DNA of 64,000 nt from Candidatus Desulfarcum epimagneticum (GTDB lineage: Bacteria; Desulfobacterota; Desulfobacteria; Desulfobacterales; CR-1). Location: contig CAACVI010000023.1 in NCBI GenBank assembly GCA_900659855.1, positions 124,001-188,000 on the forward strand, given 5' to 3'. Of the stretch, positions 11,462-20,737 are shown in pieces (within the stretch, counting starts at the first letter, position 1; the number at the start of each line of letters is the position of its first letter). Both the position numbers and the translations under genes were made by a program. Under the pieces are notes generated by a model. The model saw nothing but the letters and a program-made list of their open reading frames with translations. It searched no databases and was not told the DNA's origin.

Positions 11462-13240
11462 TTATCGCGAGGTTCTGATTTCGACCCTGCGGTTCATGGC
11501 CCGTCCCTTTTCAGTCAGGTTTGAGGACCGGGGATTTTTAAGCCCCATGGAGGCAATGGACACGCGGCTTTCTTCAATGCCCATGCCCAGCAGGTAATCC
11601 TTCACCGCCAGGCCCCGTTTTTTGGCCAGCCGGGCGTTGTAGGCCGATGAGCCCACGCCGTCCGTGTAAGCGAACACGGTCACTTTCACCGAGGGGTTGG
11701 TGACGAGGATTTTTCCCACTTCGTTCAGGACCCCCAAACCCTCGGTTTTGATGTCGGCTTTTTTATAGTCGAAAAAAATGGGCGAAATACTCCAGCATCC
11801 CTTTTCATTGATCCTTCCCGCGTTGGGAGGGGTTCCGGGGCACTGGTCCAGGTAGTCGTACACCCCGTCTTTGTCCGCGTCAAAGGGGCATCCCTCGGCG
11901 TCCACCTTCCGGGCCTGCGCCGGCGTTCCCGGGCAGGCGTCCATATAGTCATACACCCCGTCGCCGTCATGGTCGAGAGGGCAGCCTTTTTCGTCCGTCT
12001 TCACGTTGGCCGGGGTGTCGGCGCATTGATCCAGGTAGTCATAGATTCCGTCTTTGTCCGTGTCAAAGGGGCATCCTGCGGCGTCGACTTTTTCGATCTC
12101 AGCCGGCGTTCCCGGGCAGGCGTCCAGATAGTCATACACCCCGTCTTTGTCGTGATCGTAGGGGCAGCCTTTTTCGCATACTTTCACGTTGGCCGGGGTG
12201 TCCGGGCACTGGTCCAGGTGGTCATAGACCCCGTCTTCGTCCTGGTCCATGAGGCATCCTTTTTCATCCACAGGCGCGTCGGAAGGGGTGTCCGGGCATC
12301 GGTCCAGATGGTCATAGACCCCGTCTTTGTCCTGGTCCATGGGGCATCCCTTTTCATCGACCGGGGCTCCCCCGGGAGTTCCGGGGCAGGCGTCGCGGTA
12401 GTCATAGACCCCGTCTTTGTCCGAATCCAGGGCGCACCCTTCCGTGTCGATGTCGGCGCCGGACGGGGTGTCGGGACACTGATCCATCTGATCCGGGACG
12501 CCGTCTTCGTCGGTGTCCACGCGCTGAATCATAAAGGTTCTTTTGACGAAATCGGCCATCTGATGGGGCTCAAGCAGACCCTGGGCGGGCGCGAGGAATC
12601 CCCGGGCGCATTGGCCGGCGATTTTTTCCATGGAATCCGAAAGCGCCGGGTCGTTTGACGTCGTCATGGCGTACAGGCTTAAGGATTTGCCGAATTTTTC
12701 CTTGATTCGTCTGGCCGCGCCCTCCATGGCCGCGCCGTCAAGCCTTCCCCGGCTCACCACAAACAGGGCCTTTTTCCCCGGGATTTCGGACAGGGCGTCG
12801 GAGGCCAGGTCCATGGCGTCGGATATGCGGATATCCCCGCCAAAGGTCAGGCCGATTTTGTCCGTCGCGGCCCTGAAATCGGCTGGCGAATGGTCCGCCG
12901 GTCCGGACAGAAAACGGGGGACATTTTTGCCCCCGGGTCCGGGTCCGAAGGAAATCAGGCCGCTTTTTATTTTCAGATCCGCCGGCAGGGTCCGGATCAG
13001 GCGGTCCGTGAAGGTTTTGGCCAGGTTGAGCTGGGTGCGCTCGCCGCTGGACTGCATCATCTTGAAGGATGAGTCCACAATCACCGCGAACACATCCACA
13101 TTTTGCTGGTAAAAATCCATGGGCACGGACCGGGGGACGAAACCGGCGGGTTTTTGGGGGGCTTTGGTGTGGGAGCACCCCAACAGCGCCGGAATCCCGA
13201 TGAGTCCGATTGCAAGAATCATCAACGCGCGTTTTTTCAT
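11462..13240 (-). CDS. OmpA-family lipoprotein with VWA-like region and eight TSP3 repeats
   Basis: A 592-residue protein. Residues 1-22 are a lipoprotein signal (LIGIPALLGC). Residues about 45-235 resemble a von Willebrand A fold (DVFAVIVDSSFKM, then LIRTLP and LIDS-like strands), but the metal site reads DSS-F-K rather than D-x-S-x-S. Eight tandem thrombospondin type 3 repeats follow (D-x-D-x-DGVYD-x-x-D-x-CP-x-TP), each with a Cys pair, predicted to bind calcium. The last about 110 residues are an OmpA domain (IFFDYKKADIK ... YNARLAKKRG) that binds peptidoglycan. It is likely a periplasmic link between outer membrane and cell wall. Confidence 0.85.
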   Translation of the reverse strand: MKKRALMILAIGLIGIPALLGCSHTKAPQKPAGFVPRSVPMDFYQQNVDVFAVIVDSSFKMMQSSGERTQLNLAKTFTDRLIRTLPADLKIKSGLISFGPGPGGKNVPRFLSGPADHSPADFRAATDKIGLTFGGDIRISDAMDLASDALSEIPGKKALFVVSRGRLDGAAMEGAARRIKEKFGKSLSLYAMTTSNDPALSDSMEKIAGQCARGFLAPAQGLLEPHQMADFVKRTFMIQRVDTDEDGVPDQMDQCPDTPSGADIDTEGCALDSDKDGVYDYRDACPGTPGGAPVDEKGCPMDQDKDGVYDHLDRCPDTPSDAPVDEKGCLMDQDEDGVYDHLDQCPDTPANVKVCEKGCPYDHDKDGVYDYLDACPGTPAEIEKVDAAGCPFDTDKDGIYDYLDQCADTPANVKTDEKGCPLDHDGDGVYDYMDACPGTPAQARKVDAEGCPFDADKDGVYDYLDQCPGTPPNAGRINEKGCWSISPIFFDYKKADIKTEGLGVLNEVGKILVTNPSVKVTVFAYTDGVGSSAYNARLAKKRGLAVKDYLLGMGIEESRVSIASMGLKNPRSSNLTEKGRAMNRRVEIRTSR

Positions 13241-13879: not shown

Positions 13880-14533
13880 TTATTTTTGAGCGAGCCCTAA
13901 GACAATCCCCTCCATCTCTTTAAGGCTTTCGATATGGCGCGCGGCGTCCAGGGAGGGGTTCGCGTAGGCGACGAGTGGAATATGGGAGGCCCCGGCCGCC
14001 TCTTCGTCCACCTTTGAATCCCCGATATAAACCGCCTGATCCGGCCGCGCTTTGAAATGCCCGAGCATTTTTAAAAGCGGATCGGGATGGGGCTTGGGCC
14101 GGGGGGCGTCCAGGGCGGTGACCACCATATCGAAGAGGTCCTCAAGCCCGTGCAGCTCCAGGATATGGGCCATGGTGTCCGTCCGGTTGGTGACCACCGC
14201 GGTCTTGAATTTCGGCCGCAGTTTTTTCAAAAGCGTTTTCAAATAAGGCTCGATCCGGATGTATTTCAAAAACGGAAGGTAGCCCAGCTCCTTTCGGAAA
14301 TCGTTCGCCGCCTCGCGCTCTTCCGGGTCGGGGAAAAGATGGGACAGGGCCTCGCCCACCGTGTGCATGTGGGCGTGGGCGGACTGTTCCGGCGTCATGT
14401 CCGGCCGGCCCAGATTCGACAGAATCCGGTTGTAGTAGGCGATGTTGGCCTCCCGGGTTTCGAACATCACCCCGTCGCAGTCAAAGGCCACGATTTTGAT
14501 TTTTTTCCGGTCAATGGTTTTTGGATCCGTCAC
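13880..14533 (-). CDS. HAD-family phosphatase (phosphoglycolate phosphatase-like)
   Basis: A 217-residue HAD hydrolase. Motif I is VAFDCDGVMFE (nucleophile and acid Asp), motif II is VVTNRTD, the motif III Lys lies in APRPKPHPDP, and motif IV is YIGDSKVDEEAA. A helical cap between motifs I and II fits subfamily IA, as in phosphoglycolate phosphatase or beta-phosphoglucomutase; the substrate cannot be read from sequence. The start overlaps the DUF1573 stop by 4 bp. The last codons (LGLAQK) are written by a GGGCTCGCTCAAAAATAA motif that recurs elsewhere as a hairpin arm. Confidence 0.82.
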   Translation of the reverse strand: MTDPKTIDRKKIKIVAFDCDGVMFETREANIAYYNRILSNLGRPDMTPEQSAHAHMHTVGEALSHLFPDPEEREAANDFRKELGYLPFLKYIRIEPYLKTLLKKLRPKFKTAVVTNRTDTMAHILELHGLEDLFDMVVTALDAPRPKPHPDPLLKMLGHFKARPDQAVYIGDSKVDEEAAGASHIPLVAYANPSLDAARHIESLKEMEGIVLGLAQK

Positions 14534-15306
14534 TCTTTTTTTTCAACCCCCTGATTTTTAGTGGCTCCTTTTCGCTCCAGACGCCCGTGAACGTGAATGT
14601 CCACGCGCGGCTTCAAGGCGCTGGAAGTGAGAAGGGTGATTTTGTCGGAATAGCGGCCGGGCTCCTTTTTTTGGTTGGTCACGGTCAGCCGCCACCCCCC
14701 GTCTTTTTTTTCTCCCAGTTTGACTTTGATGTGTCGCCCGCCTTTTGGGGCCTCGATCCCGGTGATTTTCAGGGGCCCGCCCTGGTCCAAAGGAATCGGG
14801 GCCGGGACGATGTCGGCCGAGGCCGTGATTTCCCTGTCCGGGTCTCCTTTGAGAAACAGGACGCCCGGGGTGATCTCAAAGAGTTTTTTCACCCGCCCGG
14901 AGATGTAAAGCCGCAGCGTCGGGTGAAGGGGGTCGCTGGTCGTCACAGTGACGGTTTTTCGAAGGGCGATTCCCCCCCGGCCCTGGGTGTCCACTTCCAC
15001 GATGATTTTTCCCTCGCCGCCGGCGGGGATCTGTCGGGTGTAAAAAACAGTGGAGCAGCCTCAGCCGGTCCGGACCTTCTGGATATCAAGGGGGACGCGG
15101 CCCCGGTTTTGGATTTCAAACTCGTGTTTGACCCGGACACCCTCATACACCGCGGGAAAGCGATGGCGGTTTTCCGGGACAAAGACCGCCGGGGTTTTGG
15201 GTTCCGGCGGGCTTTGGGCGTTTTGCGCGGCCGGGCCCTGGGGCGCGGCCCATGACGCGGCCGAGATCGCGAGAGCCGCGAGCAGGATTTTTCCGAATTT
15301 CAGCAT
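14530..15306 (-). CDS. DUF1573 periplasmic protein with in-frame UGA, probable selenoprotein
   Basis: Reading through the TGA at 15063-15061 gives one 258-residue protein. Residues 1-20 are a signal peptide (LLAALAISAASWA). Next comes a DUF1573 Ig-like domain: HEFEIQNRGRVPLDIQKVRTG-U82-G-C84-S, where the family normally has R-T-G/S-C-G-C-T, then IPAGGEGKIIVEVDTQGRGG in perfect frame. The UGA thus replaces exactly the first Cys of the conserved C-G-C motif. A C-terminal second beta domain follows. It is translationally coupled to the HAD gene. DUF1573 function is not established; a U-x-C motif suggests redox or metal chemistry. Alternative: nonsense mutation. Confidence 0.75.
15010..15063 (-). 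promoter_or_regulatory. Candidate SECIS hairpin of the DUF1573 selenoprotein
   Basis: After the UGA (15063-15061, minus strand) the sequence TCCCCGCC-GGC-GGCG(A)GGGA forms an 8-bp stem with one bulged A and a 3-nt loop holding GG, 39 nt after the UGA. That is slightly farther than typical bacterial SECIS elements, so this is a weak candidate. Confidence 0.35.
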
Positions 15307-15385: not shown

Positions 15386-15534
15386 GACGACATCGTAAAA
15401 AATCCGTTCTACTGCGTTGCGGCGTTTTTTTGTTCGTTCGGCATACTGGGTATCGCCTCGCTCATTTAAAAATCACCACGCCTTGTATATCGAATTTTTA
15501 CGATGCCGTCTGATTCATTTTTTACGATGCTGTC
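15386..15534. repeat. Dispersed hairpin element, family A, copy 2
   Basis: It begins GACGACATCGTAAAAAATCC and contains TTCTACTGCGTTGCGGCG, then CGCCTTGTATATCGAA and TTTTTACGATGCCGTC (ending 15510), in reverse orientation like copy 1. A second terminal fragment (TTTTTTACGATGCTGTC) follows to 15534. It ends 6 bp from the priA stop codon. Confidence 0.85.
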
Positions 15535-15539
15535 AAAAG

Positions 15540-17819
15540 TCACATCATGAAAACAGGGTCCACATCAAAAGACACCCGGACATGGCGGTTTTTCATGGCC
15601 GGGGCCGAGACCGCCTGTCTGCCGAAGGCCCTGAGCGCCCGGCCGTCGGGGCTTTTGACCAGGACCTGCCACCTGAGCCGGTGGGCGATTCTAAACACAG
15701 GGGCTTTCGCCGGGCCGAGGAGCATGACCGAGCGCCTGAAAGCCGGGTCGCCCCGGCGCAGCTGATGAAGAAAAAGGCCCGCTTCCCGGGCCGCCGCCGC
15801 TGTTTTTTCAGGGTCCCGCCCGGATATCTCAATGAGGATCATTTTGGAAAACGGCGGGTAATCCAGCGCTTTCCTGAATTCCGTCTCCTTTTGGTAAAAG
15901 GCCGGGTAATCGCCCTTTTTCGCCGCGCGTATGGTGAAATGGCCGGGGGTGTAGGTCTGGAGAATGACTCGGCCGGGGGACTCCCCCCGCCCGGCCCGGC
16001 CCGCCACCTGGGAGATGAGCTGGAAGGTGGCCTCGCCGGCCCTGAAGTCGGGAAAATTGAGGGACAAATCCGCGCATATGATTCCCACCAGGGTGATGCC
16101 CGGGAAATCGTGGCCCTTGGCCACCATCTGGGTGCCGATCAGAATATCCGTCTCATGGTTTCTCAACGATTTCAATATGGCCGGAAGGGCGCCTTTTTTC
16201 CGGGCCGCGTCCCGGTCCATCCGGGACACCCGGGCCGTTGGGAAAAGGCTCTGGACGGCGGCCTCCAGTTTTTCCGTTCCGATCCCTAAGTTTTTGATTT
16301 CCGGAGAGCCGCACAGGCGGCAGGGGGAAGAGGCGGGAATGGAAAAACCGCAGTAGTGGCACCGGTAGACGGCCTCAGCCCGGTGCAGGGTCAGGGTGAT
16401 GTCGCAGCGGCGGCATTTCACCGGCTCGTCGCAGGCCCCGCACACCGGGAACCCGGCGAATCCCCGGCGGTTTAAAAAAAGCAGGGCCTGATTCTTTTTT
16501 TCAAGGGTTTCAGAAAGGGCTTTTTTCAGATCCGGGGAGATGAAGCGCCGGATCCCCCTCTCGTCCTTTATTTTGCGCAGATCCACGATGGAGATATCCG
16601 GAAGGGGACGGTCGAAGATCCGTCTGGGGAGTCGGACATCGGCGTATTTTTTTTCGATCATGTGATGGTGGGACTGGACCGAGGGCGTGGCCGAGCCCAG
16701 AACCGCCGGGGCGTTTTCGAGTTTGGCCCTTACCAGGGCCATGTCCCGGCCGTGGTATTTCAGCCCGGAGTCCTGTTTGTAGGACGGGTCGTGCTCCTCG
16801 TCCACAATGATGATTCCGACGCGCTCAAACGGGGCGAACACGGCGGAACGTGCCCCGATGGCCACGGACGCCTCCCCTTTGGCGATCCGCGTCCACTCTT
16901 CGCGTCGCCGGGCCGGGGAAAGGCCGCTGTGCAAAACGGCGATTTTCTCCCTGAAACGGGCCTTGAACACCCGCTCGGTCTGGGACAGCAGGGCGATCTC
17001 GGGGACCAGGACCAGGGCGTTTTTTCCCATCCCGACGATCTTTTCGGCCAGGCGCATGTACACCTCGGTCTTGCCGCTTCCGGTGACGCCGGTGAGAAGA
17101 TGGGGGGCGAATCCCGAGCCGGCCCGGGACATGATCCGGGCCACCGCCTCTTCCTGCTCGCGGGTCATATCCGGCCGGAAGTCCGCCGGGACGTCATCCC
17201 CCAAAGGGTCCCGGAATATTCTTTTCTGGAAGATTCGGACATGCCCGTCCTTCTCCAGAGAGCGGATCAGGGCCGGGGCTGTTTTCACGATTTCTTTGAG
17301 CTGTTTCACGGACATCTCGCCCCGCCGGGACAGCGCGTCTAAAATGTGTTGTTTGGACTCCCGGAATTTTTCCCCGGCCGGCCGGTTTTCGGCCAGGGCG
17401 GCCCACCGTTCCATCCCGGGGCCGGGCCGTCCTTTTTTCGCCCGCCCCCGGCTGTCGATCCATCCCCCGGGAAGGGCGTTTTTGATGACCTCTCCCAGGG
17501 GCCGCATGTAGTAATCGGAGACCCATTCAAAAAAAGGCAGCATGGACGCCGGGAACAGGGGGAAATCGTCGGGGATGTCCAGTATGGGCTTTATTTTTTT
17601 TATGTTTTCAAGGCCTTCTTTCCGGGCCGGGCCCAGGATGTAGCCGTCGGCGGTCCGGGCGCCGAAGGGGACCCGGACCCGCTTTCCCGCCTGGGAAAGG
17701 GGGGCGAGGGGACCGGGCGCCTCATAGGTGAAAACGCCGCGCGCCGGAAGGGCCACCGCCACATCAATATAAAAGGGGGAGGGGCTCATTTTTATGATGT
17801 CATCCAGTCGGTTTTTCAT
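15540..17819 (-). CDS. priA: Primosomal replication restart helicase PriA
   Basis: A 759-residue protein of normal PriA length. The N-terminal DNA-binding domain starts YIDVAVALPARGVFTYEAPG. The helicase core has Walker A LLTGVTGSGKTEVYM, Walker B IIVDEEHDPSYKQDS and VLGSATPSVQS. A zinc-binding insertion (CGACDEPVKCRRCD, then CHYCGF and CRLCG) is complete, followed by GIGTEKLEAAVQSLFP. PriA reloads the replisome at stalled forks. It is a single-gene transcription unit ending at a family A repeat. Confidence 0.95.
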   Translation of the reverse strand: MKNRLDDIIKMSPSPFYIDVAVALPARGVFTYEAPGPLAPLSQAGKRVRVPFGARTADGYILGPARKEGLENIKKIKPILDIPDDFPLFPASMLPFFEWVSDYYMRPLGEVIKNALPGGWIDSRGRAKKGRPGPGMERWAALAENRPAGEKFRESKQHILDALSRRGEMSVKQLKEIVKTAPALIRSLEKDGHVRIFQKRIFRDPLGDDVPADFRPDMTREQEEAVARIMSRAGSGFAPHLLTGVTGSGKTEVYMRLAEKIVGMGKNALVLVPEIALLSQTERVFKARFREKIAVLHSGLSPARRREEWTRIAKGEASVAIGARSAVFAPFERVGIIIVDEEHDPSYKQDSGLKYHGRDMALVRAKLENAPAVLGSATPSVQSHHHMIEKKYADVRLPRRIFDRPLPDISIVDLRKIKDERGIRRFISPDLKKALSETLEKKNQALLFLNRRGFAGFPVCGACDEPVKCRRCDITLTLHRAEAVYRCHYCGFSIPASSPCRLCGSPEIKNLGIGTEKLEAAVQSLFPTARVSRMDRDAARKKGALPAILKSLRNHETDILIGTQMVAKGHDFPGITLVGIICADLSLNFPDFRAGEATFQLISQVAGRAGRGESPGRVILQTYTPGHFTIRAAKKGDYPAFYQKETEFRKALDYPPFSKMILIEISGRDPEKTAAAAREAGLFLHQLRRGDPAFRRSVMLLGPAKAPVFRIAHRLRWQVLVKSPDGRALRAFGRQAVSAPAMKNRHVRVSFDVDPVFMM

Positions 17820-19093: not shown

Positions 19094-20737
19094 ATGAGTA
19101 AGAGAATCACCATTGATCCTATCACCAGGATAGAGGGCCACCTTCGCGTCGAAGTGGAGGTGTCCAAAGGGAAAGTTGTAAACGCCTGGAGCTCGGGCCA
19201 GATGTTTCGAGGAATTGAGCTGATTCTGCAGGGCCGCGATCCCCGCGACGCCCAGCATTTTGTGGCCAGATCCTGCGGCGTCTGAACGTACATCCATGCT
19301 CTGTCCTCGGTGAGGGCAGTCGAAGACGCGGTTGGAGTCAAAATTCCGGACAACGCCCGTTTGCTCAGAAATATCCTGCACGGCGCTCAATACCAGCATG
19401 ACCACATCGTTCACTTCTATCACCTCCACGCGCTGGACTGGGTGGACATCGTCAGCGCCCTTTCCGCCGATCCCAAAAAGACCGCCACGCTGTCGGAAAA
19501 TGTCAGCGCCGCGCCCTGGGGCGGCTCGGCCTATTTCAAAAGCGTTCAGGACAGGCTCAAAGCCTTTGTGGACAGCGGCCAGCTCGGTCCCTTCGCCAAC
19601 GCGTACTGGGGCCATTCGGCGTACAAGCTTCCGCCCGAGGCCAACCTGATGGCGGCCTCCCACTACATTGAGGCGTTGCGCCTCCAGGCCAAGGCGGCCC
19701 GGATGCACGCCATATTCGGCGGCAAAAACCCCCATCCCCAGTCCCTGGTGGTGGGCGGCATCACATCCGTCAAAGACCTGACCCCGGACCGGATCGCCGA
19801 ATTCCTGTACATCACCAAAGAAACCCAGGACTTCATCGAAAAAGTTTACATTCCGGACCTGCTGGCCGTGGCCTCGTTCTACAAGGACTGGGGCGCCATC
19901 GGCGGCACCACCAATTTCATGGCCTGGGGCGACTTCCCCCTGACCGACAAAGAGCCCGAGAGCCTGTACATGCCCCGGGGCATGATCAAAGGCCGGGATC
20001 TGGCCGGAACCGGCATGGCCAGCCAGGACAAGGTGACCGAGGATGTCACCCGCGGCTGGTATGAGCCCGGCTCCCCCAAACATCCCTACAACGGGGAAAC
20101 CAAACCCAAACACGGGGAATACAAGCCCGGCGGAGGCAAATACTCCTGGCTCAAGGCCCCGAGGTACGACGGAGAGGCCTGCGAGGTGGGGCCGCTGGCG
20201 AGAGTTCTGGTGGCTTACGCGAAGGGCCACGCGGACATCAAACCCATTGTGGACAGCGTCCTGAAACAGCTTGACGTTCCGGCCGCCGCGCTTTTCTCCA
20301 CCCTTGGGCGGACCGCCGCCAGGGGCATTGAGACCGTGGCCATCGGAAAGGCCATCCCCGGATGGATCAATGAGCTGGTGGCCAACATCAAGGCCGGGGA
20401 CACCAAGACCTACCAGCCCTGGACCATGCCCGACAGCGGAAAGGGCGTGGGCCTGAACGACGTTCCCAGGGGATCGCTGGGACACTGGATCGAGATCGAA
20501 AACAAAAAGATCAAGAATTACCAGTATGTGGTTCCCTCCACATGGAACCTGGGTCCCCGCTGCGAAAAGAACAAACTCGGACCGATGGAAGAGGCCCTCA
20601 TCGGGACTCCCATCGCCGATCCGAAAAAACCCCTGGAAGTTCTGCGGACCGTCCACTCCTTTGACCCGTGCATCGCCTGCGCGGTTCATGTGATCGATCC
20701 CGACTCCAACGAGGTTTACAAGGTCAACGTTCTGTAA
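19094..20737 (+). CDS. hysA: Hydrogenase large subunit with in-frame UGA (probable Sec) in the L1 motif
   Basis: 547 residues if UGA 19283-19285 is read as Sec. The N-terminal block [18 protein letters not shown] is the family hallmark. The L1 motif reads R-S-C61-G-V-U64-T-Y-I-H68, where the second active-site Cys is replaced by UGA. The C-terminal L2 motif is D524-P-C526-I-A-C529-AVH, with ordinary cysteines, followed by a 15-residue tail to be removed after H532 during maturation. Translation is intact on both sides of the UGA with no frame change. In characterised [NiFeSe] enzymes Sec is the first L2 position instead. AGGAGG precedes the ATG; the small subunit ends 80 bp upstream. Confidence 0.9.
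19283..19319 (+). promoter_or_regulatory. Candidate bacterial SECIS element in the hydrogenase gene
   Basis: After the UGA, CTGTCC (19301-19306), loop TCGGTGA (19307-19313) and GGGCAG (19314-19319) form a 6-bp stem, one pair being G-U, with a GG-U in the 7-nt loop. The loop starts 22 nt after the UGA, within the spacing known for bacterial SECIS (E. coli fdhF loop is about 18 nt away and also shows GGU). Confidence 0.6.

Follow-up and report, generated by a model that had tools for sequence, protein, structure and literature searches.

An OS_HP2 selenoprotein gene of Candidatus Desulfarcum epimagneticum with two candidate tandem hairpins downstream of its UGA codon

The gene at positions 14530–15306 (minus strand) of the window, by which we mean the whole stretch of 64,000 nucleotides analysed here, is a further member of the known OS_HP2 selenoprotein family of DUF1573 proteins. 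Its in-frame UGA (15061–15063, minus strand) is almost certainly decoded as selenocysteine by SelA, SelB, SelD and tRNA-Sec, aided by RNA structure just downstream, as judged indirectly from codon conservation and covariation. OS_HP2 is widespread in the order Desulfobacterales and nearly always carries selenocysteine. The best explanation as a whole, in which an exported OS_HP2 selenoprotein with hairpins in a SECIS role works in periplasmic redox chemistry and is coupled to a HAD-family phosphatase gene, seems to us somewhat probable.

The reading frame runs on the minus strand from the ATG at 15306–15304 to the stop TGA at 14532–14530 and encodes 258 residues, with the TGA at 15063–15061, codon 82, as its sole internal stop. 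A preliminary description had joined two same-frame segments across this single TGA and placed U82-G-C84 where the family has C-G-C. Both points stand: the DUF1573 domain of the read-through protein is uninterrupted and spans the UGA (PF07610, E 2e-17, residues 45–139), and residue 82 falls on the first Cys of the C-G-C motif in homologues. Read with table 11, the frame is cut into two ORFs of 81 and 156 amino acids, and a standard gene finder with this table would split or drop the OS_HP2 gene. The N-terminus (MLKFGKILLAALAISAASWAA, 15244–15306, minus strand) resembles a signal peptide by eye, and the protein is probably exported. It is encoded by the sole DUF1573 gene found in its own genome.

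We searched 194 genomes of the order for homologues, and 174 of them contained at least one. Codon 82 is TGA in 101 of the 114 matched stretches and TGC or TGT (Cys) in the remaining 13. The 114 stretches represent 112 different genes, as L010/L039 and L022/L046 each stand for one gene sampled twice, so that about 99 of the 112 genes have TGA; this share is probably an upper estimate because the sample was ranked by similarity to the window protein. The motif is U-G-C in 100 of the TGA stretches and U-Q-C in one, and every one of the 114 stretches retains the Cys at +2. In a tree of 131 proteins, selenocysteine and cysteine have changed places ten times, at least five of the changes being forced by the starred branches, and the Sec copy L112 and the Cys copy L121 are close sisters. 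The exchange between Cys and Sec among homologues, for which the preliminary description had proposed to look, is thus plainly present. Among more distant families of the phylum, TGA is likewise found at this site. A search of plasmid DNA for relatives gave no match, and a single-protein scan of the genome contigs found no relative; an alignment scan of the same contigs used a pattern with Cys codons and could return Cys relatives only, so that the conservation of C-G-C there is by construction.

The machinery expected of a bacterium that makes selenoproteins is encoded in the same genome: a tRNA-Sec scoring 76 bits against a cut-off of 47, and SelB (373 bits), SelA (573 bits) and SelD (368 bits), all over their cut-offs. 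Across the order, tRNA-Sec exceeds the family cut-off in 161 of 194 genomes. The SelD gene of this genome (L282, C12:51993–52922) has an in-frame TGA of its own, and SelD is probably itself a selenoprotein, as occurs in other organisms. Together with codon conservation, the exchange between Sec and Cys and the RNA structure in Sec copies described below, this machinery lends strong support to the decoding of the UGA as selenocysteine that had been proposed from the DNA letters.

That proposal had also drawn on a second UGA aligned to a functional Cys in the same window, and this codon is real. It lies at 19283–19285 in the gene for the large subunit of a NiFe hydrogenase (19094–20737, plus strand) and turns the N-terminal CGVC motif into CGVU by taking the place of its second Cys, the C-terminal motif being DPCIAC. 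Among 30 hydrogenase homologues in the order, 17 have TGA at this codon and the rest have Cys, and the C-terminal motif has Cys in all 30. The HysA model gives the window hydrogenase 427 bits against a cut-off of 780; in the known NiFeSe hydrogenases, selenocysteine takes the place of a different nickel ligand from the one at the CGVU position.

The RNA just downstream of the UGA is more stable in Sec copies than the encoded protein alone would explain. Compared with synonymous codon shuffles, the 96 Sec copies gave z-scores of −1.52 for codons 1–10 and −2.14 for codons 10–19, whereas the 12 Cys copies showed no excess stability (−0.07 and 0.15), and a control stretch 25–44 codons on gave a z-score of about 0. 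We ascribe the excess to two tandem hairpins. The first of them, H1 (15031–15050, minus strand; CUGUU/GACAG in the window), contributes only −1.8 kcal/mol in the window itself, and its pairs covary in 92 Sec copies: pair 17–30 changes in a compensatory manner (UA 48, CG 28, UG 16) and pair 18–29 is CG in 69, UA in 11 and UG in 9 copies. Synonymous codon choice follows the same pairing. When codon 6 is Val, the Arg codon 10 is AGA in 42 copies and AGG in 9, and when codon 6 is Ala, it is AGG in 14 of 14 (Fisher p 1e-8, in a test that ignores relatedness). The second hairpin, H2 (15010–15029, minus strand), is the one to which the preliminary description had pointed; it is present with −12.0 kcal/mol when folded alone and is kept among the Sec copies, with a median of −10.2 kcal/mol. 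Its apex is C-GGC-G in the window and C-GG-N-G in most copies, the typical apex of bacterial SECIS elements, making H2 the candidate SelB-binding element. Most of the distant copies that we inspected have both hairpins, though the residues encoded under H1 differ. In the window alone, the 57 nt that follow the UGA are no more stable than shuffles (z −0.68), and the evidence from RNA is for this reason evidence at the level of the family. The Cys copy L121, near the Sec copy L112, has a strong H1 (−11.3 kcal/mol) and a weak H2 (−4.1 kcal/mol), as if selenocysteine had been lost recently.

Bacterial SECIS elements have been delimited by a stem of 4–16 bp, a loop of 3–9 nt with G in its first two positions, a loop 16–37 nt from the UGA and an energy of −7.5 kcal/mol or lower (PMC13188914). 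H2 agrees with these limits in stem, loop and energy, and its loop lies 38–39 nt from the UGA, just beyond the range; H1 lies within the distance, but mostly lacks the G in the loop and is weak in the window. It is possible, although we put it at somewhat less than an even chance, that H2 binds SelB and that H1 fills the gap, probably bringing H2 to a working distance of SelB. The consensus computed by RNAalifold favoured an alternative stem that includes the UGA itself (columns 2–20, 3–19, 4–18 and 5–17). We preferred H1 to this stem, whose pairs are without change on both sides whereas H1 has compensatory changes; the two may alternate because columns 17–20 are common to both. The two-hairpin RNA offers a testable proposal for the insertion of selenocysteine with a SECIS loop far from the UGA.

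OS_HP2, a family credited to the deltaproteobacterial symbiont of Olavius algarvensis, has a curated model, NF041425 of NCBIfam (OS_HP2_seleno), and the window protein scores 124.9 bits with the full profile (residues 43–140) against a curated cut-off of 100. It also has a PF07610 domain in which U-x-C replaces C-G-C, and its homologues exchange Sec and Cys. A survey of the ocean from 2008 already includes OS_HP2 with pfam07610 and UxC (PMC2398784), DUF1573 with UGC appears in reviews of 2022 (PMC9312934) and 2026 (PMC13188914), and the family is credited to Zhang and Gladyshev 2007 (PMC9312934). The suggestion of a probable new selenoprotein in the preliminary description therefore does not hold at the level of the family. 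For the tandem hairpin, the priA-OS_HP2-HAD operon, the rhodanese-MauE-OS_HP2 clusters and the Cys copies in Fdh/Hdr operons we found no description in a comparison from which Zhang and Gladyshev 2007 itself was absent, and we claim no priority.

An AlphaFold2 model of the window protein, computed with 20 relatives (pLDDT 86), predicts an all-beta protein that comprises two ASH/PapD-like Ig domains, the first of which carries U82-G-C84 in a loop, U82 lying between strands 73–80 and 84–89. The nearest solved folds are the ASH/PapD-like domains of HYDIN, CEP192 and pilus chaperones, together with the DUF1573 relative 2qsv, which was also the only, and a weak, match in a sequence search of the PDB; such similarity of fold carries no proof of function. 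By the model and these matches the protein does not have the thioredoxin fold of thiol oxidoreductases, and, to our knowledge, an Ig-like fold is not usual for thiol oxidoreductases. The invariant His and Cys positions of the family alignment are U82, C84 and H61.

Directly downstream of the selenoprotein gene lies a conserved HAD-family phosphatase gene (13880–14533, minus strand; PF13419, E 4e-29), which overlaps the selenoprotein stop by 4 bp (GTGA) in the window and adjoins the selenoprotein gene in 86 of the 101 Sec rows; this overlap of four is also the commonest spacing (20 of 80 loci). The HAD gene would probably be coupled in translation, and its expression should therefore depend on readthrough of the UGA. 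Upstream lies priA, for the replication restart helicase (15540–17819, minus strand; next to 54 of the 101 Sec rows), and this main locus has no redox neighbour. Between priA and the selenoprotein gene, at 15389–15530, an inverted repeat is visible by eye, GCATCGTAAAAAATG ... TTTTTTACGATGTC, perhaps a small repeat of mobile or regulatory nature. Elsewhere in the window, a large protein is encoded at 11462–13240 (minus strand), in which a VWA-like region and TSP3-type repeats accompany an OmpA domain. Other copies of the family, both Sec and Cys, lie in clusters of rhodanese, MauE and DUF1573 genes, and in Desulfonema magnum (L153) a single open frame contains a Cys copy together with a MauE-like sequence. 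MauE is a membrane protein on which methylamine dehydrogenase, an enzyme with a disulfide-rich small subunit, depends. Outside these clusters, most Cys copies adjoin formate dehydrogenase-like molybdopterin enzymes, HdrA or MvhD; Cys copies with a HAD neighbour also occur (L065, L105 and L131). Cys-type paralogues in clusters of Fdh-like, HdrA, HdrC-like and MvhD genes are L052, L057, L076, L101, L135, L138, L142–L146, L149–L152, L154 and L155.

Could the UGA be a nonsense mutation or a sequencing error in a decaying gene? The splitting of the frame under table 11 is what one would see in such a gene, but the same TGA recurs in most of the genes and in many families, selection on RNA structure is confined to the TGA copies, and the frame downstream of the UGA is intact, which leaves this reading with practically no weight. 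Conservation of the TGA rules out a pseudogene or sequencing error, and the chance origin of an in-frame TGA is excluded by that conservation together with the Cys at +2 in every stretch. The UGA might also serve mainly as a selenium-dependent switch, where termination at low selenium would make translation of HAD, through its coupling, less frequent, with the chemistry of the selenoprotein itself taking second place. The overlap with the HAD gene and its retention beside most Sec copies would suit a switch, but selenocysteine is kept in MauE/rhodanese clusters that lack the HAD gene, Cys copies with a HAD neighbour exist, and the protein sequence conserves both U and C; we regard a switch as highly improbable.

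A further possibility is a selenoprotein in which U-G-C serves as a binding site for a metal (Cu, Hg, Zn or Ni), or for selenium or sulfane sulfur, rather than cycling through a selenenylsulfide; with rhodanese it could be a carrier of persulfide or perselenide. The short U-x-C in an Ig-like loop, the rhodanese genes next to several copies and an Fe-S cluster motif in a third neighbour of L066 speak for it. The invariant His and Cys are limited to the three positions given above, replacement by Cys has been tolerated repeatedly, and electron transfer would account for the MauE neighbours at least equally well, and we consider this reading rather unlikely. We favour a thiol/selenol redox role, leaning on the motif and on gene context (MauE and rhodanese, and Fdh/Hdr beside the Cys copies). 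In this redox role, which we judge an even chance in its details, a periplasmic protein would form a selenenylsulfide from its Sec and Cys and undergo exchange with a membrane or periplasmic partner, with MauE and rhodanese serving in some genomes. A literature search on mechanisms of MauE and of CXC motifs gave nothing usable. More tentatively still, and unlikely when taken in its entirety, the SECIS might be bipartite, with H1 as spacer and a SelB-binding H2 past the range of 16–37 nt, and the protein might be a selenol redox carrier that MauE and rhodanese serve, its redox site sitting on an ASH/PapD-like Ig domain, a fold for which no such site is known. The HAD and MauE/rhodanese contexts and the Cys paralogues in Fdh/Hdr operons make testable proposals for the role of OS_HP2.

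Among known systems, the window protein shares with the OS_HP2 proteins of NF041425 the same domain and the U-x-C motif at a score above the curated cut-off, and nothing speaks against its membership. With Cys-type DUF1573 proteins, such as those of Bacteroidota, it has the Ig-like fold in common, whereas they have C-G-C in place of its U-G-C. The distant relative from Porphyromonas gingivalis (2qsv) also has the Ig-like fold, but lacks C-G-C in the aligned stretch. A pair of Sec and Cys, presumed to be redox-active, is common to OS_HP2 and the UxxC thiol oxidoreductases (selenium thioredoxin, DsbA-like), although OS_HP2 has U-x-C on an ASH/PapD-like Ig fold and no thioredoxin fold.
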